Below are positions 148-43,775 of a stretch of 46,034 nucleotides of DNA, piece after piece. Position 1 is the stretch's first letter, and each line of letters begins with the position of its first letter. Position numbers and translations under genes: made by a program. Source of the stretch: Deltaproteobacteria bacterium. Its GTDB lineage: Bacteria; Myxococcota; Myxococcia; Myxococcales; 40CM-4-68-19. Location: assembly GCA_005888115.1 (NCBI GenBank), contig VBKO01000343.1, forward strand, positions 1-46,034. Direction: 5' to 3'. The notes under the pieces are model-generated. The model was given only the letters and a program-made list of their open reading frames with translations, did no database searches and was not told the DNA's origin.

Positions 148-1437
148 TCAATGGCGCCGGACGTTTCGTTCGGGACGCGGTCCCCGCGCGCGACCCGGCG
201 GTCTGACCCGCTGCCCGTCGCCGGCGATCTGTATCTCGACCAGGAACTCCGCCCCACCCGCGCGCCGATTGCGCGCGGTGATCGCGCCGCCGATCCGGCG
301 CATCGTGCTCTGGGCGAGCCAGAGTCCCAGCCCGGTACCCGCCTTGCCCTTGGTGGTGAAGAACGGCTGGAAGAGCCGCGGCAGGTGTTCCGGCCCGATT
401 CCCGTCCCTTCGTCGGCGATGGTCACCCGCACGCGGTCGCGGGCCCGCTCGGCGCTGACGTGCACCGTTCCCCCGTCCGGCATCGCATCGCGTGCGTTGA
501 AGAGCAGGGTGACGAAGAGGTGGGACAGCTCGGCACCGCTGCCGAGGACCAGTGGGAGATCGGGGACGTCCGTGCGCACCTCGACGGGCGCCGCGCCGGG
601 CGGCTGGCGAAGGTGCAGGACCCCGATCGCCTGCCGCAGCACTTCCCCCAGGTCCACCGGTCCGGGCTCGAGTCGGCCGGATCGCGCCACGTCGTGCAGC
701 TTGCGCACCGACTCGAGGGCAGCCTCGATGCTCTCCTGGAGCCCCACCACGAGTGGCCCGTACTCCGCCATCACGCGCGTGTCGCGGGTGAGCACCGCCG
801 TGCGCGTCGTCACTCCGCGCAGCGTGTTTCCCAGCTCGTGCGCGATCGAGGAGGCCAGCTCGCCGAGGATGCTCATGTGCTCGCTCTGGAAGAGCGCTTC
901 GCGCATGTGCGACAGCTCTTTTTCTGCCCGGGCTTGCTCGGTCACGTCCTGCGCGAGGACGACGACCGGCGAGGCGACCGCGTCGATCCGCTCCAACCGG
1001 AGCTCCACCACCTGTTCCCCGTGCATGCTGCGGTACCGCCGCACCACCACCGAGGGCGCCCGCTCGGGCAACTGTCTGGCCTCGGCCACCGCGGCCTGCG
1101 ACAGGCGCATCCAGGTGGTGCTCGGAACCTTGCCCTCGCGCATCCATCCGCCGCGCGCAATGTCCAGCTCGTGCCAGCGGGCGTTGCGGGTGGTGATGGC
1201 GCCGTCCTTCACCAGCGCGAGACCGCTCGCAGTGACGTTCAGCGCCCAGAAGCCGAGCCGGTAGACGGCGCTGCCGCCGCCCGAACGTTGCTGCACGAGC
1301 TCGCTGGTCCGCACCTCGAGCCGGCGCACCAGCGCGGCGTACTTGCGCGAGAGATCCAGGTATTTCGCGCGGAGGTCCACCAGGACGTCCGGCTCGGCGC
1401 TCTCGGCGGCATCAGCGATGTTGCGCTGGTCGCGCAT
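148..1437 (-). CDS. PAS-containing sensor histidine kinase
   Basis: 429-aa ORF; H-box-like region '[19 protein letters not shown]', HATPase motifs '[13 protein letters not shown]', '[33 protein letters not shown]'. Confidence 0.9.
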
Positions 1438-3415
1438 CGTTCTCCCTCAACCTGGCAATCTCCGCCTGGAGCGCGGCCATCCGGCTCATGTCCTCCAACA
1501 TGAGGACCGCCCCGAGAGGCGCGCCACCGTCCACGATCGGCACTGCCGCGAGCGTCGCCTTCCCGAGCCCGCCGTTGGGCAGCTCGTAGTCGAGCTCCTC
1601 CGAGCGGGTCCCGAGGTTCTGCGCCAGTGCCTTGCTCACCTTCGCCAGCACGCCGCGGTTCAGCGCCGGAATGTGAAGCGTCCACAAGACCTGCCCGACC
1701 GCCTCGCCCTCGGTGAGCCCGAGCAGTCGCTCGGCTGCGAGGTTCCACACGATGATCTTGCCCGACCCGTCGAGGACGATCAGCGCCGCGGACAGGCTGC
1801 GGATGATCACCCGCTGGTTGAATGCCAGCTTGTTCATCTCCTCGGTACGATGCGCCAGCTCGCGGTTGGTCGCGTCCAACTCGGCGTTGGTGGACTGCAG
1901 CTCCTCGTTGGTAGTCTCGAGCTCCTCGTTCGTCGACTGCAGCTCCTCGTTGGTCGTCTGCAGCTCCTCGTTGGCGGATTGCAGCTCCTCGTTGGTGGTC
2001 TCCAGCTCCTCGTTCGAGGACTGCATCTCTTCGTTCACGGTCTGCAGCTCTTCGTAGGCCGTCTGACGTTCCTGATTCGCCTGCCGCAGCTCCGATTCCA
2101 TGCGGCGCACGGAGGTCACGTCGTGGACGAGATAGACGAGCCCGGCGTTCTCGCCGGTGGCGTCGCGTAGCGGCGACACCTCGACCGAGAGATGGATCCC
2201 GTTCGGCTCGGAGGCCCGCGCCAACACGCCGTCGCCGCGCTCCCGTTCCGACCGCCCCTCGCGGACCGCCGCAGTCTTTTCGATCAGCAGGTCGCCCGCC
2301 AGTCCCGGGAGGCTCAGCGCGGCCAGCTTCTTGCCGGTCGTTTCGGTCTCCCTGCGATTCCACAGCCTGGCGGCAGCGCCGTTCCAAAGCATGACGGAGC
2401 CATCCAGCGTGGTCGCGATCACCGGCAGCGGGAGCGATTGCAGCACCTCGCGGTGGAATTGATCGATGCTCCCGACCTTCTCCGTCTCCTGGTCGATCTC
2501 GCGCGCGACGCTCTCCTGCTCGAGCAGCCCCACGAGCCGTTCCTGCGAGACCGCGCTGTCGCGCCGCCCATCCTTCCGATAGATGCGGCGCGCCAGATCG
2601 ATCGGCTCGTAGATGCGAGCGGCGAAGGGGATCAGCTCGGACTTTCCGAGCATCAAGATTCCGTGCTGCCGCAGCGCATAGTGGAAGCGCGACAGCACCC
2701 GCTTCTGCAGCGCGGCGTCCAGGTAGATGAAGACGTTGCGGCAGATGAGGAGGTCGAGCCGCGAGATGGGCGCATCGCTGACCAGGTTGTTGATGCCGAA
2801 GATGACGGACCGGCGCAGCTCCTTGCGCACGGCATAGCCGTCGCCCTCTTCGATGAACCACTCCGCCAAGGCCTTCTTGGAAACCGATTCCACCTGGTCG
2901 CGGGCGTACTGGCCTTTGCGCGCGTGCGCGATCGCCTTCTCGTCGACGTCGGTCCCGAAGATTTTCACGTCCTGGTTGCCGAACGAGGGACCCATCGCTT
3001 CGGCGAGCACGATCGCGGCGGAGAACGCCTCCTCCCCGGTCGCGCATCCCGCGCTCCAGACGCGGATCTCCTCTCCTGGCCGCTTTTCCGAGAGCATCTG
3101 CGGGATGGCCTTGGAGGAGAGCTCCTGCCACACTTCCGGGTCACGGAAGAACGAGGTCACCTTGATGAACATCGAGCCGAGCAGGGCGTCGAACTCGGCC
3201 GCATCGCGGTCGAGCAGCGCCCCGTACTCGCGCACGGTGCGCTTGCCCCGATCCTGCATCCGCCGCTGGATGCGCCGGAGCAGCGTCGGACGCTTGTAGT
3301 TGCGGAAATCGAAGTTCCGCGTTTCGCGGATCTTGCGGAGGATCTCCTCGAGGTCGCCGCCAGACGCCGCTTCCTTGCGGGGCTTCTGCTTGGTCGCGCC
3401 CGCGCTCCTCGCCAT
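1412..3415 (-). CDS. CheR-type methyltransferase fused to PAS domains and a TNEELQ coiled coil
   Basis: 667-aa ORF; '[22 protein letters not shown]', '[10 protein letters not shown]' CheR motifs; long '(T/S)NEELQ' heptad-like stretch followed by PAS domain. Confidence 0.92.
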
Positions 3416-3748: not shown

Positions 3749-4687
3749 GTGGTCCGGAACATCGCAACCGCCGCGGCGCTGCTTTGCGCCTGCGGCGCCG
3801 AGTTCATCGAGCCGAATCCACCCCGGCTGGTCCGGAGGCGGGTGGATTACCAGGCCTCTTCGGTGCCCGAGCCCGCCGTCTGGTTGGTGGTCTCGGATCT
3901 ATTCCTCGAGCACGACGAGGACTGCGCCGCCACCGTGGCGTGGCTCGGCGCCTCCATCCGCGGGGCGGTCCCGGCCTCCGTCCCGGGCAGGCTCGAGCTG
4001 CCGGTGGTCCAGACCTCTCCCTGCACGCAGCCGAACTCGCGCGCGATCGACCCGTCGGCGATCGACGCTGCGCTTCGCGGTGCCGAGGCCGCGTTCCCGG
4101 GCCGCTCGGTGCGCGCGGTGATCGTCTACGCAAACAACGTGCTCGCCACCGTGCCGGGACAGATCGCCTCGGCGCTGGACGCGGCGCGAAAGCTCGCGGT
4201 CGCTCGCGGCGCGCTGGAGCCGCGGATGTGGGCGCTTCTTCCCGGCGGTCTCGCCACGGGCGTCCGGGCGGATCGCACCGTGACGTGGACGTACGCCGGG
4301 GATCCGGCCCTCGCGCGCCAGCTCGCCGACGTCGCGGCCCAGGAGCTGCCCTTCACCTCGGATGCCGCGCTGGTCACTCCGCCGCTGACGCTGTTCGCTA
4401 GCGGCCCGGATGGCGTCCGCGTCTTCAAGGTGTGCAAAGTCGACCCCGCCGTCCAGCTCCTCGGGTTCGCGGGAGACGGGACCTCGGTGGCCGTCGACTC
4501 CGCGGATCCGCCGGAGTACCGCGTCACGCTCGCGCCCCGATTCGCGCTGCCGCGCTCGGAATTCCAGGTGCAGCACGCCGGCCTCGAGGTGGAGGCCTGC
4601 ATCGATCATTGCGACCGGTACCACGGCGACGATCGGGTGCGGTGGCTGACGAGGCCAGGCTGCGTGTTGCCGGGAGCGTCCTCATGA
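3749..4687 (+). CDS. Predicted lipoprotein, first gene of MotAB/FliFG-like cluster
   Basis: GTG start with GGAGGG upstream; signal peptide and lipobox 'ALLCAC|GAEF'; rest of ORF supported by high-GC coding pattern. Confidence 0.75.
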   Translation: MVRNIATAAALLCACGAEFIEPNPPRLVRRRVDYQASSVPEPAVWLVVSDLFLEHDEDCAATVAWLGASIRGAVPASVPGRLELPVVQTSPCTQPNSRAIDPSAIDAALRGAEAAFPGRSVRAVIVYANNVLATVPGQIASALDAARKLAVARGALEPRMWALLPGGLATGVRADRTVTWTYAGDPALARQLADVAAQELPFTSDAALVTPPLTLFASGPDGVRVFKVCKVDPAVQLLGFAGDGTSVAVDSADPPEYRVTLAPRFALPRSEFQVQHAGLEVEACIDHCDRYHGDDRVRWLTRPGCVLPGASS

Positions 4688-6779: not shown

Positions 6780-7963
6780 CGGTCGTGCCCCTCCTCGCCA
6801 CAGCGCTCGTGGCGCAGGCCGTTCCTCCGGACTTCAAGGGCGACGATCCGCGCTCGACGGGGTCCGCCCAGGCCGCCCCCGCGGCGGCGCCGAAAACGCC
6901 GGGGCAGCCGCCCCCGGACGTCCCCGAGGGTTCCGACATCCAGTCTCGCAAACGCCCCGAAGCCCCTGGCGCGGCCACGGAGAAATACCTCGCGCCGAGC
7001 GGCGCGGCGATCGACGCCAACGACATCCTGGACGAGATGCTCGACCAGCTGGCAGCGGACGTCGCGCGGCTGGGACCTTTGCGCATCGGCCCCATCCTGC
7101 TCGAGCGGGTCCGGCTGTCCGACAACCTGAACCCCGACTTCGCCCCGGTGCTGGAAGCGCGGCTCGCGGCGTCGGTCGCGCGGACGACCGAAGTCGCGTT
7201 GCTTCGCTGCGCCGAGTGCTGGGCGACCCGCGGAAGGCTCGAGAACGGCGCCTGGGTGGTGAGCCGCGGCGTCAACCGGAAGGAGGAGATCGCAGCCGTC
7301 GCGCAGAAGTACGCGGCGCGAACGCTCCTCACCGTGGCGCTCACGCTCCTCGACGAGCCCAGCACCTTGGCGATGGACGTGGAGCTGGTGCACGCGGACG
7401 ATTCGTCGATCGCCTTCGCGGAGCAGTACCGCATGAACCCGGAGACCGCGCTGCTCTATCGAGGCGTCGACCGCACCCAGTCGCGGTTCAAACGGCTCAA
7501 GGAGCTGCAGGACCGCATCGACCAGCGGCCGCGGTTCAGCCACGAAATCGATTTCGGGACGATGGGCCTGTCCGCCTCGGGTTCGCTGAACTGGGGCGCC
7601 CTCGCACGCTACGCGCTGACCGAGCAGTTCGGCGAGAACGGCGCCGGCGACGCGGGCATCGAGGCCGGCGGATACGTGAACACCTCCCTCTTCTCGACCG
7701 GCCTGGTCGGCGGCGTGTTGCGGCTCCGCCTCGGCGGAGCGCAGGTCTTCTCCTCCGAGGTGCGGCTCGTTACGCACGCCGGCGCGCTGCTCACCGCCGG
7801 CGCGACCAGTTTCTACGGGGGTGCGGGCCTGCGGCTCAAGCCCGCCATCCGGGTCACGATCTTCGCCATGCTCGACTACGTGGCGCCGTTCCAGGTCCGC
7901 AAGGACGGACCCAAGTACGGCGAATTCGCTCCGCAGCTGGGGCTGGGGTTCACATGGCCATGA
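6776..7963 (+). CDS. Exported protein with FlgO/CsgG-like N-terminal domain and C-terminal beta-barrel
   Basis: ATGA overlap; N-terminal region 'LAADVARLGPLRIGPILLERVRLSDNLNPDFAPVLEARLAASVARTTEV...' followed by barrel-like C-terminus ending 'FAPQLGLGFTWP'. Confidence 0.6.
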   Translation: MTVVPLLATALVAQAVPPDFKGDDPRSTGSAQAAPAAAPKTPGQPPPDVPEGSDIQSRKRPEAPGAATEKYLAPSGAAIDANDILDEMLDQLAADVARLGPLRIGPILLERVRLSDNLNPDFAPVLEARLAASVARTTEVALLRCAECWATRGRLENGAWVVSRGVNRKEEIAAVAQKYAARTLLTVALTLLDEPSTLAMDVELVHADDSSIAFAEQYRMNPETALLYRGVDRTQSRFKRLKELQDRIDQRPRFSHEIDFGTMGLSASGSLNWGALARYALTEQFGENGAGDAGIEAGGYVNTSLFSTGLVGGVLRLRLGGAQVFSSEVRLVTHAGALLTAGATSFYGGAGLRLKPAIRVTIFAMLDYVAPFQVRKDGPKYGEFAPQLGLGFTWP

Positions 7964-8588
7964 ACAGAGGCTGGGTCCTCTTCGTCCTCTGCGCCTGCTC
8001 GGCGGTGCAGCCGAGGCGGATGGTGGTGCCGGAAGGAATGCGCAGGGAGGCGCAGCCGCTGCCGCGGCCGGAGAACAAGCCCCCCACGCCGGCATTGCAG
8101 GGCGCGCTGCAACCGGCCGCGGCCACCCGGGCGCAGGACGGCCGGTACGTGCTGCGGCTCGCCGAGCACAACCGCGTCTGGGAGCTGGAGCTGCCCGAGT
8201 CGGCCGGCGGGTACGAGATGCGAATCCCCTTGGACGGCCCCCTCGAATCGCCGACCGCGGCCGACGCCGAGCTGCTCGCGGCCGCGCCGGAGGTCCGGGC
8301 CGCCCCGAACACCGCGGCGGATGCGAAGCCGGACGGCGCCGCCAAGCCGCCCGCCACCGGCACGAAAGCCGACGCTGCCGCGAGGATCCTGGGCAAGAGC
8401 TACTGGTGGAGCTGGTCGATCTGGAGGCTTCGCACCCGAAGGACGCCCGGCTGCAAGCGATGAAGGGCTCCGTCTACCTGAAGCTGGGCAAGGCGCAGCT
8501 CGCGCGCGAGTCGTGGCAGAAGGCGCTCGCGCTCGATCCCGAGGACCCCGCCGTGGCCGAGGCGCTGCGGACGCTCAAGGAGGAGTAG
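7960..8588 (+). pseudogene. TPR lipoprotein whose reading frame is interrupted (frameshift near 8370-8410)
   Basis: ORF from 7960 has lipobox 'LFVLCAC|SAVQ' and ends at 8463 in atypical 'YWWSWSIWRLRTRR'; the TPR 'ELVDLEASHPKDARLQAMKGSVYLKLGKAQLARESWQKALALDPEDPAVAEALRTLKEE' is in another frame to 8588. Confidence 0.6.
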
Positions 8589-9995: not shown

Positions 9996-11630
9996 ATGCT
10001 CATCCTTCTGGCAGCGGCGGTTGCGCTCACGCCCGCTTCGCGCCTGCAGCGCGACGCTGAGGACAAGGCCCGGGCCGAGATGACCGATCTCTTCCGCGCG
10101 CTCTGCCCCGAGCAGTGCGTGCTGCTTTCCATCCAAGCGCGGGTCGAGGAGGAAGCGGTGGGGACGGCCGACCCGGGATTCGACGCTCCGGGTGACTTGA
10201 AGGCGCCCGTCCTCAAAGGAGCGACGGCCGGAGTGCTGCTCGACGCAAAGCTGCCGCCCGCCTTCCGCGGCAAGGTGCGGGACCTGGTGGCGCAGCGCCT
10301 GCGCGCGTTGGGGGTCCCGGCGCAGGTCGCGATCCAGGCGGTGCCCTTCCCTGTGCGCAACCCGACGCACCTGGAGGCGCCGCCGCCCGCGCCCCAGATG
10401 CCGCCGCCGGCCGTTCCGCCGGCACAGGCGGCGCAGCCGGAGGCAAAACCGATCAGCGCACGAGACCGCCTTCTCGAGGAGGCGCCTGCGCTCGCCGCCG
10501 CGGCGCTCTTCGCCATCGTGGCGCTGGCGCTCGGCGCTTTGCTGTACCTCGCCACGCGCCGCGCGCAGGAGCCTGCCTGGGAGCTGGAGCCCGCGGCTCC
10601 GCCGGATGCGGCGGGCGCGGGCCGGCCGGCTACGTTCTCCGAGTCGCGGCGGCGCAAGCTGGAGAAGGCGCTCGCCGACGAGCGCGCGGTGCGCAACTCC
10701 GTCGTCCGCGAAGCGCTGACCCGCGGCGAGATCGATCTCGTGGCACGCTGGGTGCGCGAGCTGGGCGAGTTCCTGCTCCAGGACCTCGGCTCGGACGGCG
10801 CCATCGCGCAGGCGGTATCGGCGGTGGCCGCGCAGGTGGGCCGCGTGGCTCCCGATCCGTCCGCCCTCACCGAGCTGGAAGGCAGGTTGATCGGCGCGAG
10901 GCTCGCCCGCGCCGCCGAGAACGCCGACGGCGCATTCGCGTTCCTGGAAGGAGTGCGGCCCGACGCCTTCGCCGCGGCTTGCCGGGACCTCTCGCCGGGC
11001 GCACTCGACGCCGTGGTCCGGTTCGCGCCGTCGAGGCTCCGCGCAGCGGCCTTGCAGGAGCTGTCCACCGAGCAACGGCGCGAGCTCGCGCTCGCCTGGG
11101 CGCGGCGCCCCGAGGTGCCCGCGTCCTACGCGCTCGCCGCCGCCGACGAGCTGCGCGAGCGGCTGGAGCGGATGGGCGGCGGTCCGCGGCAAGCCGAGAG
11201 CGCGATGAGCGACCTGCTCGACTCGCTGGGGCGCGACGAGCAGGACGTCCTGCTCGAGCGGCTGCGGCGCGAGGGCGACGGCCGATCCGCGCGCGCCTTG
11301 GTCACCGAGTCTGCGCTGGGCGGCGTCCCCGCTGACGTGCTCGCTTCGGTGCTCCTCCGCGTCGATCCGGCGCGGGTCGTCGCCTACCTGGCCGGGGCCG
11401 ACCCGGGTCTGCGGCAGAAAGTGCTCGGCGGTTGCCCGGCGCGGCTCCGTCGCGAGCTGGAGGAGGAGCTGCAGCTGCGCGGATCCTCGACGCCGGCGGA
11501 GTTCCTCGACGCGCGCCGGGAGATCCTCGCGCGGCTGCGTGACGAGACGGCGCGCCGCAACATCTCATCCGCCGAAGTTCGTGGCTGGTCGAACGGCGCC
11601 GCCGAGCGCGCGCGCCTGGCGGCGGAGTGA
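9996..11630 (+). CDS. FliF C-terminal-like / FliG-like fusion protein
   Basis: Signal-like N-terminus, single central TM 'LAAAALFAIVALALGALLYLATRR', then FliG-like 'SAMSDLLDSLGRDEQDVLLERLRREGDGRSARAL' and 'LASVLLRVDPARVVAYLAGADPGLRQKVLGGCPARLRRELEEELQLRGSSTPAEFLDARREILARLRDE'. Confidence 0.68.
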   Translation: MLILLAAAVALTPASRLQRDAEDKARAEMTDLFRALCPEQCVLLSIQARVEEEAVGTADPGFDAPGDLKAPVLKGATAGVLLDAKLPPAFRGKVRDLVAQRLRALGVPAQVAIQAVPFPVRNPTHLEAPPPAPQMPPPAVPPAQAAQPEAKPISARDRLLEEAPALAAAALFAIVALALGALLYLATRRAQEPAWELEPAAPPDAAGAGRPATFSESRRRKLEKALADERAVRNSVVREALTRGEIDLVARWVRELGEFLLQDLGSDGAIAQAVSAVAAQVGRVAPDPSALTELEGRLIGARLARAAENADGAFAFLEGVRPDAFAAACRDLSPGALDAVVRFAPSRLRAAALQELSTEQRRELALAWARRPEVPASYALAAADELRERLERMGGGPRQAESAMSDLLDSLGRDEQDVLLERLRREGDGRSARALVTESALGGVPADVLASVLLRVDPARVVAYLAGADPGLRQKVLGGCPARLRRELEEELQLRGSSTPAEFLDARREILARLRDETARRNISSAEVRGWSNGAAERARLAAE

Positions 11631-11632
11631 CC

Positions 11633-12601
11633 ATGCGCGCCTTTCTCGTAGCGCTCTGCGTCGCGGTCCTCTCCGGGTGCCTCGCCCCCCCGCCCGAGGA
11701 TCCGCCGGTCACGATCGCCCCTCCTCCGCCACCTCCGCCGCCGCCGCCTCCGATCGGTCCACCGCCGCCTCCTCCTTTCCTGGTGTGCGGACGAACGAAG
11801 ATCCTCGATACGGGCGGCCATGGCGGCTTCCCCGGCAGCGGGCTCGGGCAGGACGGCGGGACGGGCCAGCTCTGGCTGGTGCGCATCGATCGCGGCACCG
11901 CGAATCTGGCGCAGTCGATCCAGACACTGATCCAGCGCACCACCGGCGCTCTTCGCGACGCGCGGCTGTCGCCGCGCGGCATCGCAGTGGTGTCGCTCTA
12001 CGACGGAGCCGTGGTCTGGTCGACGTCGAACGCGAGCCGGGACCCCCTGAGCAACATCGCGACCTTGCTGAGCGCCCGCGCCGCGTTCGACAACCCGGCG
12101 CCAGCGGGGTGCCCAACGTTCCAGCTCCTGGACGTCGGACGGCGGCTCTCGGAGATCGGACCGCCGGCGAACCCGTTCGCCATCCGCCCGGGAGCGCTGC
12201 TGGTCGGCATGGTCGACCACGGCGCGCGGCCGGCGCCGCTCGCGAGCTGTGGAGATCCAGCGGGGGCGCTCTCCGCGGACATCGCCTGCTGGGCGTCGTT
12301 CGGCTCCGTCGTCCTGCAGCGGGCCGACTTCCGCTTCGGCTTCTTCGCCACGCCTGAAACCGGAACGACCCAACAGATGAAGACCAGCTGTCTCGCCGTG
12401 CCGGGTCTACCTTCGACGACCATCGACTCGTTCGAGGCGTCGGACTTCGCCTTCTACGACCCGCTCGCGCAGCAGATGGAGCAGCGCCAGCCGGGCCTCG
12501 CCGCCCGATTCGACCTGTGCCGCGCGTTCGGGTCGGACGCGCCCGTGCAGCTCGCCACGTTCGCGAATACCTGGGCCCAGCTGCTGGCCGCACAACCGTG
12601 A
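11633..12601 (+). CDS. Proline-rich lipoprotein
   Basis: Lipobox 'VAVLSGC|LAPP'; 'APPPPPPPPPPPIGPPPPPP' tract; WLVRIDRG...-type domain. Confidence 0.75.
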   Translation: MRAFLVALCVAVLSGCLAPPPEDPPVTIAPPPPPPPPPPPIGPPPPPPFLVCGRTKILDTGGHGGFPGSGLGQDGGTGQLWLVRIDRGTANLAQSIQTLIQRTTGALRDARLSPRGIAVVSLYDGAVVWSTSNASRDPLSNIATLLSARAAFDNPAPAGCPTFQLLDVGRRLSEIGPPANPFAIRPGALLVGMVDHGARPAPLASCGDPAGALSADIACWASFGSVVLQRADFRFGFFATPETGTTQQMKTSCLAVPGLPSTTIDSFEASDFAFYDPLAQQMEQRQPGLAARFDLCRAFGSDAPVQLATFANTWAQLLAAQP

Positions 12602-13197
12602 AACGGGCGCTGCCACAGCTCGCCCGACGTGCGCCGGCCCGGCGGCGACTGCCGGCCGGCGCGCGCCGGACGATCGGCGCGCGTCGCATCGCCCCGCCGG
12701 GGCGCTTTGCACCTCCACGGCGGAAGCGAAGTCGCTCAGGCATCGCAGCTGCCGCGGTGCTGGGCCTCGCGCTGCTCGCGTGGATCTTCTGGCCCTCGCC
12801 GTCGCCGCCACCCGGCGCTCCTCCTCCCGCGCCCGCCCGGGCCGCCGACGTCATGACCCCGAAGGAGCCGCGCAAGGTCCGCGCCCGCCGGCCGCTGCCG
12901 CCGCCGCCCGCCGCGCCGGCGCAACCCGACGTCGACGAGGCGCGCGTCCGCGCTGCCGTCCTCGCCCGGGCCGCGAGTCTCCGCGCCTGCGCCGTCCCCG
13001 CGGGCGCGCCCAGCCAGATCCCGGTCCGGCTGCGGGTGCCGGCGTCCGGAGAAGTGCGCTCGGTCCAACTCGGCGGACCCGAGCCGCTCCCGGCGGCGCT
13101 CTCCGGATGCCTGCGCGAGAAGCTCCTGCTCTGGCGATTCGACGACCTGCACCTGTCGTCCGATGTAGACGTGTTCGCTACATTCGCGCTTCGCTGA
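12598..13197 (+). CDS. Single-pass TonB/AgmX-like protein
   Basis: GTGA overlap; TM 'SGIAAAAVLGLALLAWIFW', Pro-rich linker, C-terminal 'IPVRLRVPASGEVRSVQLGGPEPLPAALSGCLREKLLLWRF' resembling TonB/AgmX C-terminal domains. Confidence 0.65.
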   Translation: MKRALPQLARRAPARRRLPAGARRTIGARRIAPPGRFAPPRRKRSRSGIAAAAVLGLALLAWIFWPSPSPPPGAPPPAPARAADVMTPKEPRKVRARRPLPPPPAAPAQPDVDEARVRAAVLARAASLRACAVPAGAPSQIPVRLRVPASGEVRSVQLGGPEPLPAALSGCLREKLLLWRFDDLHLSSDVDVFATFALR

Positions 13198-38803: not shown

Positions 38804-39185
38804 CGCTGGCTGCGTCTCCGCGCGCGTCCCCGCCGGCTGTGCGCTCCCGCCTTGGCTCACGTTCCTCCTCCTCCTCGCGACCCAGCATGGCCGTCATCCG
38901 GCATCGACGGCGCAACCACCGGTGCTCCATCATCCCAGCGAACGCCGCCGCGAGGAAGCACACGGCCCAGGCGGCGAGAACGGCGAGGCGCGGGGCATCG
39001 GGTAATCGGACGCCCAAGGCGAGCAGGAGCCACAAGCACACGGCTCCGCCGGCGGCCCCATGCACCAGGAGCAGCCGCAAAGCGCGGTAGCGCTCCCAGT
39101 GGAGCTGCGCGAGCAGGAACTGTCGGAGCAGCGGGTCTGCCGCCCTTCTCGGTGAAATGCGCGCCAGCTGGGAAGCGTCGCTCAT
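38781..39185 (-). CDS. Small two-TM hypothetical protein
   Basis: 134-aa ORF between kdpC and the response regulator; 'LLLVHGAAGGAVCLWLLLALGV', 'LAVLAAWAVCFLAAAFAGMM'. Confidence 0.55.
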   Translation of the reverse strand: MSDASQLARISPRRAADPLLRQFLLAQLHWERYRALRLLLVHGAAGGAVCLWLLLALGVRLPDAPRLAVLAAWAVCFLAAAFAGMMEHRWLRRRCRMTAMLGREEEEEREPRRERTAGGDARGDAASDARAHRR

Positions 39186-39784
39186 CGGTGGGCCAGGGGT
39201 GGTCGCCCGAACTGCCAGTCGAGCGCCAGGTTGACGAGCAAGACGTTCACCCGCGGCTCGCCAAGGACGAGCAACTCGCGGCCTTCGACGTTCGCCTCGA
39301 TGACGGCCCGGACGCGTTCCTCGCTCACTCCGCGAGCGCGCGCCATCCGGGGCGCCTGCCAGAGCGCAGCTTCGGGCGAGACGTGAGGGTCCAGACCGCT
39401 CCCCGAAGCAGTCACGAGCTCGGCCGGCAGGGGCCCGGTCGCGTCGGGATTCTCGGCGACGAGTCGCTGCAGCTCGGTCGCGGCGCGGTCGCGCAGCGCC
39501 TTCGACGTCGGACCGAGGTTCGACCCGCCGGACGACGTGGCGTCGTACCCCTTCTCGCCGGCCGCCGACGGTCGCGGCTGCAGGTAACCGGCGCTGGCGA
39601 ACGATTGCGCGATCAGCTCGGAACCGACGGTCCTCCCGTATTGGTCGGCGATCAGGCTCCCCCGTGCCCGCGCCGGGAAGAGCAGCAAGGCCAGGCCCGT
39701 CGTCGCGAGTGGGTAAGCCAACCCGGTCAGCACGAGCGTGACGACCGTGGCTCGGATCGAGATGCGCAGCTCGCGGCTGATCAT
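39182..39784 (-). CDS. kdpC: Potassium-transporting ATPase subunit C
   Basis: 'TLVLTGLAYPLATTGLALLLFPARARGSLI', 'SGSGLDPHVSPEAALWQAPRMARARG'. Confidence 0.95.
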   Translation of the reverse strand: MISRELRISIRATVVTLVLTGLAYPLATTGLALLLFPARARGSLIADQYGRTVGSELIAQSFASAGYLQPRPSAAGEKGYDATSSGGSNLGPTSKALRDRAATELQRLVAENPDATGPLPAELVTASGSGLDPHVSPEAALWQAPRMARARGVSEERVRAVIEANVEGRELLVLGEPRVNVLLVNLALDWQFGRPPLAHR

Positions 39785-39793
39785 TGGCAGCTC

Positions 39794-41866
39794 CTAGGTG
39801 ACGCCCGCCGCGGACAGGCCGAGGTCGATCGCCTTGATCCCGACGAACGGCGCGACGATGCCGCCCACGCCGTAGACGAATAGCGAGCGGCGCAGCAACG
39901 CCGCGGCGCCGAGCGGCCGATACCGCACGCCGCGCAGCGCCAGCGGGATGAGCAGGACGATGATGACGGCGTTGAAGATGACCGCGGACAGGATCGCGCT
40001 GTACGGGGAGGCGAGGTGCATGACGTCGAGCGGCGCCAGCTCGGGGAACGCGCCGACGAACAGCGCCGGCAAGATGGCGAAGTACTTGGCGACGTCGTTC
40101 GCGATCGAGAAGGTCGTCAGCGTTCCGCGCGTCATCAGAAGCTGCTTGCCCACCTCGACGACCTCCAGCAGCTTGGTGGGATCGGAGTCGAGGTCGACCA
40201 TGTTGCCGGCCTCTTTCGCCGCCTGCGTACCGGTGTTCATGGCGACGCCGACGTCCGCCTGCGCCAGCGCCGGCGCGTCGTTGGTGCCATCGCCGGTCAT
40301 GGCGACGAGCTTGCCCTTTTCCTGCTCTTCCTTGATGAGGCGCATCTTCGCCTCCGGCGTCGCCTCGGCGAGGTAGTCGTCGACGCCGGACTCCTTGGCG
40401 ATCGCGGCGGCGGTGCGCGGGTTGTCCCCCGTGATCATCACCGTGCGGATGCCCATTGCGCGAAAGCGCGAGAACCGCTCCGAGATCCCTCCCTTCACCA
40501 TGTCCTTGAGGTGGATCAGCCCGAGCAGGCGCGCTCCGTCGGATACCGCCAGCGGCGTCCCACCGCCATCGCCGATGCGCCAGGCGGCCTGGACCACATC
40601 GTCAGGCACGGAGCCGCCGAGCGACTGGACGTGCGCGGAGACGGCATCGACAGCGCCCTTGCGGACCCGCCGGTCCGCGAGATCGCACCCGCTCATGCGG
40701 GTGTGCGCAGAGAAGGGGATGAACGTCGCGATCCCCTTCGTCTCCCGTCCACGCAGGCCGTGACGTTCCTTGAGGAGCACCATGATCGAACGGCCTTCGG
40801 GCGTCTCGTCCGCCAGGCTCGCCAACTGCGCCGCGTCGGCCAGCTCGGAAACCGCGATGCCTCGGGCTGGAAGGAGCTCGGTGGCCATCCGGTTTCCCAG
40901 CGTGATCGTCCCGGTCTTGTCGAGGAGGAGCGTGTCGACGTCTCCGGCGGCCTCGACCGCGCGGCCGCTCATCGCCAGCACGTTCTTGCGCAGCAGCCGA
41001 TCCATCCCGGCGATGCCGATGGCCGAAAGGAGCCCGCCGATGGTGGTGGGGATGAGACAGACGAGCAGCGCCACGACGGCGGTCGCGCCGAGGCGGATTC
41101 CCGAATACAGCCCGAGAGGCACGAGCGTCACGCAGGCGAAGAGGAAGACGATGGTGAGGCCGACGAGCAGGATGTGCAGCGCGATCTCGTTCGGGGTCTT
41201 CTGCCGCGCGGCCCCTTCGACAAGCGCGATCATCCTGTCCAGGAACGATTCGCCGGGATTGGAAGTGATGCGCACGACGATGCGGTCCGAGAGCACCTTC
41301 GTGCCGCCGGTCACGGCGGAGCGGTCGCCGCCGCTCTCGCGGATCACCGGGGCGGACTCGCCGGTGATGGCCGATTCGTCGACGGAGGCGATTCCCTCGA
41401 TCACTTCCCCATCGCCCGGAATGAGCTGGTTTGCCTCGACCACCACCAGGTCGCCCTTCTTCAGGCGCGAGGCGGGGAACATCTCCTCGTTGGCGATGGG
41501 AATGACGTCCGGCGGCGGCGGCCAGGTGCGGATCTTCCTCGCGATCGTGTCCTGCCGCATCCTGCGCAGCGTGTCCGCTTGGGCCTTGCCTCGCCCTTCC
41601 GCAACCGCCTCGGCGAAATTCGCGAACAGGACCGTGAACCACAGCCAGAGCGATACCGTCAGGGTAAACCACCGCGGCGCCGCGCCGGGCGCGGGGGTGA
41701 GCACGTCACGTAGCCACACGGCGGTCGTGAGCGCGCTTCCAATTTCCACCACGAACATGACCGGGTTCTTGATCAGGTGCTGGGGAGCGAGCTTGCGGAA
41801 GCTCTCGACGACCGCGGAGCGCAAGATGGCCGCATCGAAGAGCGAGAGCTGCTTTGCCTTGGCCAT
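39794..41866 (-). CDS. kdpB: Potassium-transporting P-type ATPase subunit B
   Basis: '[14 protein letters not shown]', '[21 protein letters not shown]'. Confidence 0.98.
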
Positions 41867-43591
41867 CTAGAAGAGCCTCCCCGCGCGAGCTGCGAAGTGC
41901 TCGACGAGCGGACCGAGCGAGAGCGCCGGAAAGAACGTCAGCGCACCGACGATCACGATCACCGCGACGAGCAGCGCCGCGAAGAGCGCACCGTTCGTGG
42001 GGAAGGTGCCGGGTCCGGCCGGGACCACTTTCTTGCTCACCATGGACCCGGCGATCGCGAGCACCGGGACCATCATGAGGAAGCGTCCGGCGAGCATGTC
42101 GAATCCGAGAGCGAGGTTCCAGAAGCGCGTGTTGGCGTTGAGCCCCGCGAACGCAGACCCGTTGTTCCCCGCCCCGCTCGAGAACGCGTAGAGGATCTCC
42201 GACAGACTGTGCGGACCGGCGTTGGCGATCGACGAGGTGCCGTACGGAGCCACTGCGGCCCAGGCGCTGAACCCGAGGATGAGGAGGGGAAAGATGAGCA
42301 CGTACAGCATGGCGAGCTTCATCTCGCGCGCCTCGATCTTCTTTCCCAGGTATTCGGGCGTGCGCCCCACCATCAGCCCGGCGATGAAGACGGTGAGCAG
42401 CACGAACATCAGGATCCCGTAGAGCCCTGCCCCGACCCCGCCGAAGATGACCTCGCCGAGCTGCATGTTGACGAGCGCCACCAGGCCCCCGAGCGGCGTG
42501 AAGCTGTCGTGCATCGAGTTGACCGCGCCGCAGGAAGCGTCGGTGGTGACGGTCGCGAAGAGCGCGGAAGCGGCGAGGCCGAAACGCGTCTCCTTGCCCT
42601 CGAGGTTTCCCGCCGTCTGCTCCAGCCGCGACAGCCCGCGCAGGGCCGGGTTGCCGCGCGCCTCCGCCGCGTAGACGCAGAGCACGCCCGCAATGGACAA
42701 GGCAGCCATGCCCGAAAACAGCGCCCATCCCTGGCGCTGGTCGCGGGCCATGCGTCCATACGTGTAGGTGAGGCCCGCCGGGATGGCGAACATCGAGAGC
42801 ATCTGGACGAAGTTGGTGAGAGGCGTCGGGTTCTCGAAGGGATGCGCGCTGTTCGCGTTGAAGAAGCCGCCGCCGTTGATGCCGAGCATCTTGATCGCCT
42901 CTTGCGAGGCGACGGGCCCCATGGCGAGCACCTGCTTTGCGCCCTCCAGCGTCACCACCTCGCGGTACGGCGCGAGGTTCTGCAGGACGCCCTGCGAGAC
43001 GAGGAAAAGCGCGTAGACGACGCAGATCGGAAGGAGGACGTAGACGGTCGCGCGGACCAGGTCCACCCAGAAGCTGCCGATCGTGTTGACGCCCGTGCTC
43101 CCGACCTTTCGCGTGAACCCACGCGCAAGCGCGAGCGCAACGGCGAGGCCCACTGCGGCCGACGTGAAGTTGTGCCAGGCGAGGCCCGCCATCTGGGCCA
43201 GGTAGCTCATCGTGGTCTCGGGCGAGTACGCCTGCCAGTTCGTATTGGTGGTGAAGCTGGCGGCCGTGTTGAACGCAAGCGCAGGCTCGACCGGCCCGAG
43301 CTTCTGCGGATTGAGGGGCAACCAGTGCTGCGCCCGCTCGATCGCGTACGTGACGAGAAAACCAAAGAGGCTGAAGGCGAGCACCGAAAACGCGTACAGC
43401 GTCCAGGGCTGCTCGCGAGCCGGGTCGACGCCGCACAGACGGTAGAGGAATCGCTCGAGCCGGCCGAGCACCGCGGGGAGCGGCTGCCGATTTCCCTCGA
43501 AGACGCGGAACATGTACGCGCCGAGCGGCTTCGTCACCGCGAGCACTAGCAGGAAGTAAATGGAGATCTGCGCCCAGCCGACGGCCGTCAT
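41867..43591 (-). CDS. kdpA: Potassium-transporting ATPase subunit A
   Basis: '[37 protein letters not shown]', '[22 protein letters not shown]'. Confidence 0.98.
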
Positions 43592-43683
43592 GGCTGGAAC
43601 CGCTCCGGCGCCAGCAGCGCATAGGTGAGATAGGCGCCGAGCAGCACCGCGACAGCTAGACCGATGGCGTATTCGAGGCTCAC
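43588..43683 (-). CDS. kdpF: KdpF-like small subunit
   Basis: GTG start; 31 aa '[31 protein letters not shown]'; ATGA overlap with kdpA. Confidence 0.85.
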
Positions 43684-43775
43684 GGCGCACCGCCGAGCCG
43701 CTCGCAGAAGCGCACGTACGCCCAGCAGGCTGCGAAGAAGGCGACGGTCGCGAGGACGAGTAGAAGGTCGAGCAT
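43680..43775 (-). CDS. 31-aa transmembrane micro-ORF upstream of kdpF
   Basis: '[31 protein letters not shown]'; GTGA stop/start overlap with kdpF. Confidence 0.6.

Follow-up and report, generated by a model that had tools for sequence, protein, structure and literature searches.

The bacterial flagellar motor is usually viewed as inseparable from the larger machine to which it belongs, and the joining of this motor with the type III export part is an old question. In Escherichia coli, rotor and stator meet through two charged contacts, those of MotA R90 with FliG D288-D289 and of MotA E98 with FliG R281 (PMC12505986), while a Salmonella mutant carrying a FliF-FliG fusion-deletion still rotates (PMC9389320). 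FliG is counted among the parts that non-flagellar type III secretion systems (T3SS) lack (PMC3459982). The main text of a MotAB survey does not contain the string 'Myxococc' (PMC12505986), and no report of a motor system such as that described below was found in the literature, where only open-access papers were considered.

The 46,034 nucleotide stretch of DNA analysed here (the window), from a soil-dwelling relative of the myxobacteria, carries ten genes between 3749 and 13197, all on the same strand, which mostly overlap by 4 bases or are separated by 2-base gaps and of which the eighth encodes a fusion of FliF and FliG sequences (Table 1). As far as sequence comparison and predicted fold can establish it, flagellar-type MotA and MotB, a chain running from the third ring-building motif of FliF (RBM3) through a transmembrane (TM) helix to a whole FliG, and outer-membrane and lipoprotein partners are brought together in this one conserved operon. 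We consider it probable that the operon encodes a self-contained, ion-driven rotary motor which is not a flagellum, free of export apparatus and switch and delivering torque to the outer membrane, with ring formation, rotation and output being inferred. The first-pass annotation of this DNA had dealt with the fusion alone, and the upstream MotA and MotB genes, the operon of ten genes and the lack of flagellar genes in the rest of the genome are additions to it.

Table 1. Features of the ten-gene operon, its fusion protein and related loci. Positions are those of the window unless a locus handle precedes them.
Feature	Position	Strand	Basis
Gene 1, Cys-rich lipoprotein, 312 aa, lipobox LCAC then G (by eye)	3749..4687	+	Orthologues in every fuller locus, 26-46%
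Gene 2, outer-membrane beta-barrel, 192 aa	4684..5262	+	TIGR04565 OMP_myx_plus 2.8e-12; orthologues 46-64%
Gene 3, exported, TPR-like repeats (by eye), 506 aa	5259..6779	+	Orthologues in fuller loci
Gene 4, LpoB-like periplasmic domain then 8-stranded outer-membrane barrel, 395 aa	6776..7963	+	AlphaFold, Foldseek
Gene 5, lipoprotein with C-terminal TPR	7954..8588	+	Single ORF in relatives; Pfam TPR in an orthologue
Gene 6, MotA-type stator subunit, 259 aa	8591..9370	+	PF01618 2.5e-16; best NCBIfam PomA 3.1e-21
Gene 7, MotB-type stator subunit, 206 aa	9373..9993	+	MotB_plug 2.8e-9, OmpA 2.4e-17, both over cut-off
Gene 8, predicted FliF(RBM3)-FliG fusion, 544 aa	9996..11630	+	Pfam, profile alignment, AlphaFold, fold search
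Gene 8, signal peptide, residues 1-14	9996..10037	+	By eye; below TM threshold
Gene 8, RBM3-like periplasmic domain, residues 13-116	10032..10343	+	Predicted fold, fold search, profile match
Gene 8, TM helix, residues 165-183	10488..10544	+	TM prediction; spanned by helix 155-188 of the AlphaFold model
Gene 8, FliG-like part, residues 216-520; N, M and C domains by fold match	10641..11555	+	Profile alignment, model, fold search
Gene 8, torque-helix Arg483 (= E. coli Arg281) and Glu490/Glu491 (= Asp288/Asp289)	11442..11468	+	Alignment of type A family
Gene 9, lipoprotein (lipobox LSGC by eye), low-complexity linker and conserved domain of unknown fold	11627..12601	+	
Gene 10, inner-membrane protein, periplasmic tail like AgmX/PglI C-terminal domain	12517..13197	+	NF033768 E 0.003
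Type B loci	L054 8628-13102; L064 7083-11321; L065; L066; L067 5869-10094; L068 5488-9986; L069 6143-10498; L070		
FliG homologues of T3SS loci	L071 7607-9076; L072 8436-10760; L076 7199-8575; L074 7793-8812		

The open reading frame of the fusion, which opens with ATG, lies exactly where it had first been placed, and both the frame and the protein segments quoted from it are present in the sequence. It is a real gene, since orthologues of 50-60% identity occur in eight further genomes (close relatives) besides its own, since changes are rarest at codon position 2 and commonest at position 3, and since it holds a fixed place in the operon, where it either overlaps a neighbouring gene by 4 bases or lies 2 bases away from it. 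The orthologue alignment spans the whole length of the protein except the linker around the TM helix. In a scan for related loci, the single fusion sequence retrieved none and the alignment of its family (hereafter type A) retrieved seven.

Support for FliG in the fusion comes from several directions. Pfam FliG_C matched residues 440-520 (E 1.4e-10; 41.8 bits against a curated cut-off of 23.3) and also matched all eight aligned orthologues. The first-pass annotation had read the C-terminal block as FliG-like and had proposed comparison with FliG profiles; in that comparison the type A profile aligned colinearly with the M and C domains over 195 columns, equivalent to E. coli FliG 114-313 (96% probability, E 3.9e-9), where reversed and column-shuffled FliG controls reached only 0.1-0.2%, so that the reading is strongly supported. 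A PDB sequence search with the fusion alignment likewise returned FliG (E 8e-4). When the AlphaFold model of the fusion (19 sequences, mean pLDDT 81.9) was used in a fold search, the 13 best PDB matches were all FliG, with the C-domain of Thermotoga maritima FliG superposing at a TM-score of 0.84 and 2.0 A. Since fold alignments on several full-length FliG chains extend over 313-327 columns, the N, M and C domains are likely all present in the predicted structure; the full-chain rmsd is large, as expected for a hinged multi-domain protein. Weak MgtE_N matches were obtained too, and would be the ground for regarding the C-terminus as an unrelated helical-repeat protein (HEAT, TPR or MgtE-N-like) that resembles FliG by chance. 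That view is refuted by the FliG_C score, by the colinear profile match with its clean controls, by the uniformly FliG fold matches and by the adjoining MotAB genes. The profile and fold matches also exclude a HEAT/TPR fold without any FliG hit, the outcome which had been named in advance as fatal to the fusion. On both profile and model evidence, then, the cytoplasmic part is FliG. The FliM-binding EHPQR motif has gone from it, EHPQ aligning with LSPA or LSPG in the alignment and family consensus, in line with the absence of FliM reported below.

The periplasmic part required a more indirect case. Its first residues read by eye as a signal peptide (MLILLAAAVALTPA followed by SR) and only one strong TM helix is predicted, both as previously annotated. 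In the AlphaFold model the N-domain comprises a helix (13-36), two strands (41-54 and 69-83), a second helix (88-103) and a further strand (109-116); this alpha-beta-beta-alpha-beta order is the topology of a ring-building motif (RBM). After FliG, the next PDB fold matches are FliF MS-ring/RBM3 entries (E 0.02-0.06, probability 0.99-1.00), which we infer to concern the N-domain as the search gave no query coordinates, and OsmC-like folds come directly after them at a similar level. Pfam did not detect the FliF part in the single fusion sequence, YscJ_FliF remaining unmatched, and the isolated N-domain profile aligned with FliF at only 1.5% probability. With flanks included the probability rose to 36-50%, and the N-domain with the TM region matched exactly at the RBM3 end of FliF (36.5%, E 3.7e-4); the score of 33.9 compares with a maximum of 18.9 in the shuffle control, in which none of 150 shuffled FliF profiles performed as well. 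RBM1, RBM2, the first TM helix and the beta-collar insertion of FliF were not found in the fusion, which has a signal peptide where FliF has TM1 and a short loop (54-69) between its two strands.

Further evidence on the FliF part came from a second FliF(RBM3)-TM-FliG fusion family, type B, found in eight Myxococcota genomes in a cluster of the fusion, a TPR protein, MotA and two MotB genes. In one genome only (G031) is it accompanied by flagellar FliG, FlhA and FliM/FliN. Its N-part aligned with the FliF profile over 189 columns (97.2%, E 4.4e-11), Pfam YscJ_FliF_C fell just under the cut-off on one member (7e-4, 20.5 of 23.8 bits), and the type B profile also picked up short segments immediately preceding flagellar FliG in G145, G170 and G184. 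By sequence comparison, type B would link the type A fusion to FliF. Both families adjoin flagellar-clade MotA and MotB, but type B has the clearer FliF part and a second MotB gene, lacks barrel or lipoprotein genes in its cluster and occurs in other genomes. A tree built on the FliG part separates types A and B, as one group, from all flagellar FliG (98/90), although this tree is unrooted, has long branches and gives no age for the fusion. Since the direct sequence match is weak, the FliF assignment rests on the fold, the register of the match, the shuffle control and the bridging type B family, and supports with moderate strength that the periplasmic domain is a reduced FliF retaining RBM3 only. 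The FliF identity first claimed for this domain holds for the last ring-building motif, on fold and in-register profile match, and not beyond it; the accompanying claim that most ring-building domains and the first TM helix had been lost is borne out by the missing YscJ_FliF match and the signal peptide. The superposition of predicted structures suggested at that stage was clear for FliG and left RBM3 level with OsmC-like folds.

The stator genes immediately upstream point in the same direction as the FliG part. In the MotA tree, the operon's MotA groups with flagellar MotA, apart from all ExbB/TolQ-type proteins that these genomes encode (100/99), the genome's other MotA/ExbB-family proteins falling on the opposite side of this branch; E. 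coli MotA forms a long branch in the tree, whereas the myxobacterial flagellar MotAs do not. The nearest NCBIfam families are PomA/MotP. MotB contains the plug segment, an invariant Asp22 in a SYAD motif and an OmpA peptidoglycan domain. We have little doubt that the fusion and MotAB are true homologues of the flagellar rotor and stator.

Conservation of the torque-helix charges, proposed as a check by the first-pass annotation, proved to be partial. The positions of FliG Asp288 and Asp289 are acidic (Glu/Asp) in 13 of 15 and 15 of 15 sequences, respectively, and are Glu-Glu in this fusion; that of Arg281 is Arg or Lys in 10 of 15, while Arg297 and Lys264 are not kept in type A. On the stator side, all type A members compared have Arg at the position of E. 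coli MotA Arg90, and MotA Glu98, the partner of FliG Arg281, is mostly Leu. As judged from these alignments, one of the two classic rotor-stator charge pairs is therefore kept and the other lost. The lost pair, together with the AgmX-like tail protein and two barrels in the operon, could be taken to indicate a Ton/Tol-like energiser, in which MotAB pulls or rotates and energises the barrels through the AgmX/TonB-like product of gene 10, with the fusion serving as a docking or regulatory adaptor and not as a rotating ring. We regard this as unlikely, given that MotA belongs to the flagellar clade and not to ExbB/TolQ, that the plug and OmpA peptidoglycan anchor of MotB fit a fixed stator, and that a role as a mere adaptor would hardly account for a whole FliG with its acid pair. 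It is likely instead that the fusion is a rotor driven by the operon's MotAB, for which no experiment is available.

Among the remaining genes, the TIGR04565 match of gene 2 lies under the family cut-off (46.9 of 60 bits). For gene 4 the AlphaFold model (pLDDT 76) has eight C-terminal strands, and Foldseek returned Ail/NspA/OmpX (1e-5 to 3e-4) and LpoB (7.7e-5, TM-score 0.64); its LpoB-like domain contains two invariant cysteines, C145 and C148, on the same chain as the barrel. The frame of gene 5 is broken near 8390-8400 in this contig, one frame covering 7954-8463 and a second ending at 8588; compared with relatives, the gene lacks about 19 residues in addition to the frame shift, which may reflect an assembly error or a real loss. 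Gene 1 represents a family without known relative, for which a PDB search gave no match, and neither Pfam nor NCBIfam matched gene 3. Gene 9 gave no Pfam match and has orthologues of 34-39% identity, or 21-22% in far loci; its PDB matches were discarded as artefacts of the low-complexity linker, and a VWA/CglB-like reading of genes 1 and 9 made by eye is unsupported by any database match. The position of gene 10 is conserved, its start is uncertain (12517 to 12757) and its NF033768 match is under the cut-off.

Two further regions of the window were noted by eye. A histidine kinase gene and a CheR-PAS chemotaxis-type gene lie divergent to the operon (148-3415, - strand) and are not conserved beside it elsewhere, while an ordinary kdp-like potassium ATPase cluster with two 31-residue ORFs occupies 39182-43775 (- strand).

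Partners of this kind recall myxobacterial gliding, in which MotA-family motors travel with outer-membrane partners (PMC3169522, PMC9120999), and gene 2 resembles a myxobacterial barrel family as gene 10 does the AgmX tail. By analogy with Agl-Glt, the fusion could be a linear or scattered track element along which stators travel without any closed rotor. This is very unlikely, as the OmpA domain of MotB anchors it to peptidoglycan, unlike the ExbD/TolR-type AglQ and AglS (PMC3169522), as the fusion retains a ring-building motif, and as the GltJ equivalog model gave only below-cut-off matches in those family genomes that were tested. Myxococcaceae-type carriers G036, G067 and G089 do possess GltJ, and this occurrence of the operon both with the GltJ equivalog and without an above-cut-off match to it suggests that it is independent of Glt. 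A rotor turned by fixed stators remains the preferred reading.

The ten-gene order is common to L011, L012, L014, L016, L017, L023 (Archangium lansinium) and L048-L051, in unrelated flanks; in a few loci single end genes were missed by gene calling, and L013, L015 and L018 are short contigs. The operon is carried by 14 of the 145 genomes of the order, including A. lansinium, and 18 of 195 genomes were positive in the phylum sample, among them G163, which is type B. A diverged operon with rotor, MotA/MotB and several other partners occurs in three other Myxococcota lineages (L053, L055+L056 and L057+L058, each pair being separate contigs of one genome).

In the operon's own genome (93.5% complete), no FliG_C besides the fusion and no YscJ_FliF, FlhA or FliM/FliN was found, nor were the non-flagellar T3SS markers SctV/FlhA and SctJ; FliF, FlhA and FliM/FliN were likewise not found in the other family carriers tested. 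Carriers G036, G067 and G087-G090 have FlhA-family matches and, where tested, FliM/N-family matches without a strong flagellar FliG, a pattern which, from such matches, would fit a non-flagellar T3SS. One genome, G161, has both the operon and flagellar FliG, and two family members with flagellar genes (G004 and G006) lack the operon. Within the order, flagella accompany the operon in 0 of 14 genomes and occur in 29 of 131 others (one-sided p 0.037), a statistically weak comparison of related genomes. Mutual exclusion of operon and flagella is not claimed, given the weak statistics, the relatedness of the genomes and the presence of both in G161.

Family carriers without flagellar genes, and the broken frame of gene 5 in this contig, might be read as signs of a decaying remnant of a lost flagellum. 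This reading is disfavoured and barely tenable: the ten-gene order is kept across families and partly across classes under purifying selection, most partners have no flagellar counterpart, and in G161 the operon coexists with flagellar FliG.

As a separate observation, myxobacterial non-flagellar T3SS loci contain a FliG homologue directly after the SctJ gene (FliG_C 2.1e-10 in L071; FliG_M 4.4e-6 in L074). In L071 and L072 it is followed by the SctL and ATPase genes and takes the position expected for SctK.

The machine that we propose would contain MotA5B2 units anchored on peptidoglycan through the OmpA domain of MotB and turning on ion flow, which would push the FliG torque helix through the contact of MotA Arg90 with the FliG acid pair. 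The fusion would form an inner-membrane ring through its RBM3 domain and would rotate one way only, without a CheY-controlled switch, as inferred from the missing FliM-binding motif and FliM/FliN. From the periplasmic side of the ring, torque may reach the two outer-membrane barrels and the surface lipoproteins, with the TPR lipoprotein, the repeat protein and the AgmX-like protein as intermediates. Whether torque is delivered to the outer membrane at all is evenly balanced, the argument resting only on operon membership and predicted location. The motor might drive motility on surfaces, move a surface polymer or supply the outer membrane with energy, and surface gliding in particular is a tentative suggestion on which we would not rely.

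If this reading is true, types A and B in Myxococcota would indicate that the flagellar motor is able to exist, and to evolve, as a module of its own, and an operon with stator, torque ring and minimal membrane ring and without an export system would make the motor testable alone. The fusion would be a natural counterpart to the FliF-FliG fusions of laboratory strains, and the operon would extend the range of MotAB-driven machines by one whose role in the cell envelope is unknown. As A. lansinium is a named isolate carrying the operon, laboratory testing may be feasible.

Among described systems, the 5:2 motors of Tol, Ton and Zorya share with the operon ion-driven units of the MotA superfamily, but the operon's MotA lies outside the ExbB/TolQ-type clade and has a FliG partner. 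The Agl-Glt machinery of Myxococcus and its Nfs variant share an ion-driven MotA-family motor with outer-membrane, TPR, lipoprotein and AgmX-type partners (PMC3169522, PMC3858216); in Agl, AglR is paired with two ExbD/TolR-type proteins and neither FliG nor an RBM protein is present, whereas the operon has FliG and a predicted RBM3 and its MotA falls outside the TolQ/ExbB clade to which AglR-type motor proteins belong. The Salmonella FliF-FliG fusions similarly join the FliF tail to FliG on one chain, but are mutants within a complete flagellum, while the fusion described here is natural and conserved, has lost most of FliF and stands outside a flagellum. With the flagellar motor itself the operon shares flagellar-clade MotA, the plug, Asp and OmpA domain of MotB, the FliG N-M-C fold, one RBM-type domain and rotor-stator gene linkage. 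It differs in having FliF and FliG in one polypeptide without RBM1, RBM2, the long beta-collar insertion or the first TM helix, and in having barrels and lipoproteins in the operon in place of the EHPQR motif and, in family carriers, of FliM/FliN and an export gate. On balance we slightly favour an undescribed class of trans-envelope rotary machine, in which a flagellar torque unit would act at the outer membrane in the absence of an export gate, switch, rod and filament, and a single polypeptide would provide both the membrane ring and the torque ring. Its torque unit clearly belongs to the flagellar type, and the machine as a whole may represent a new class.
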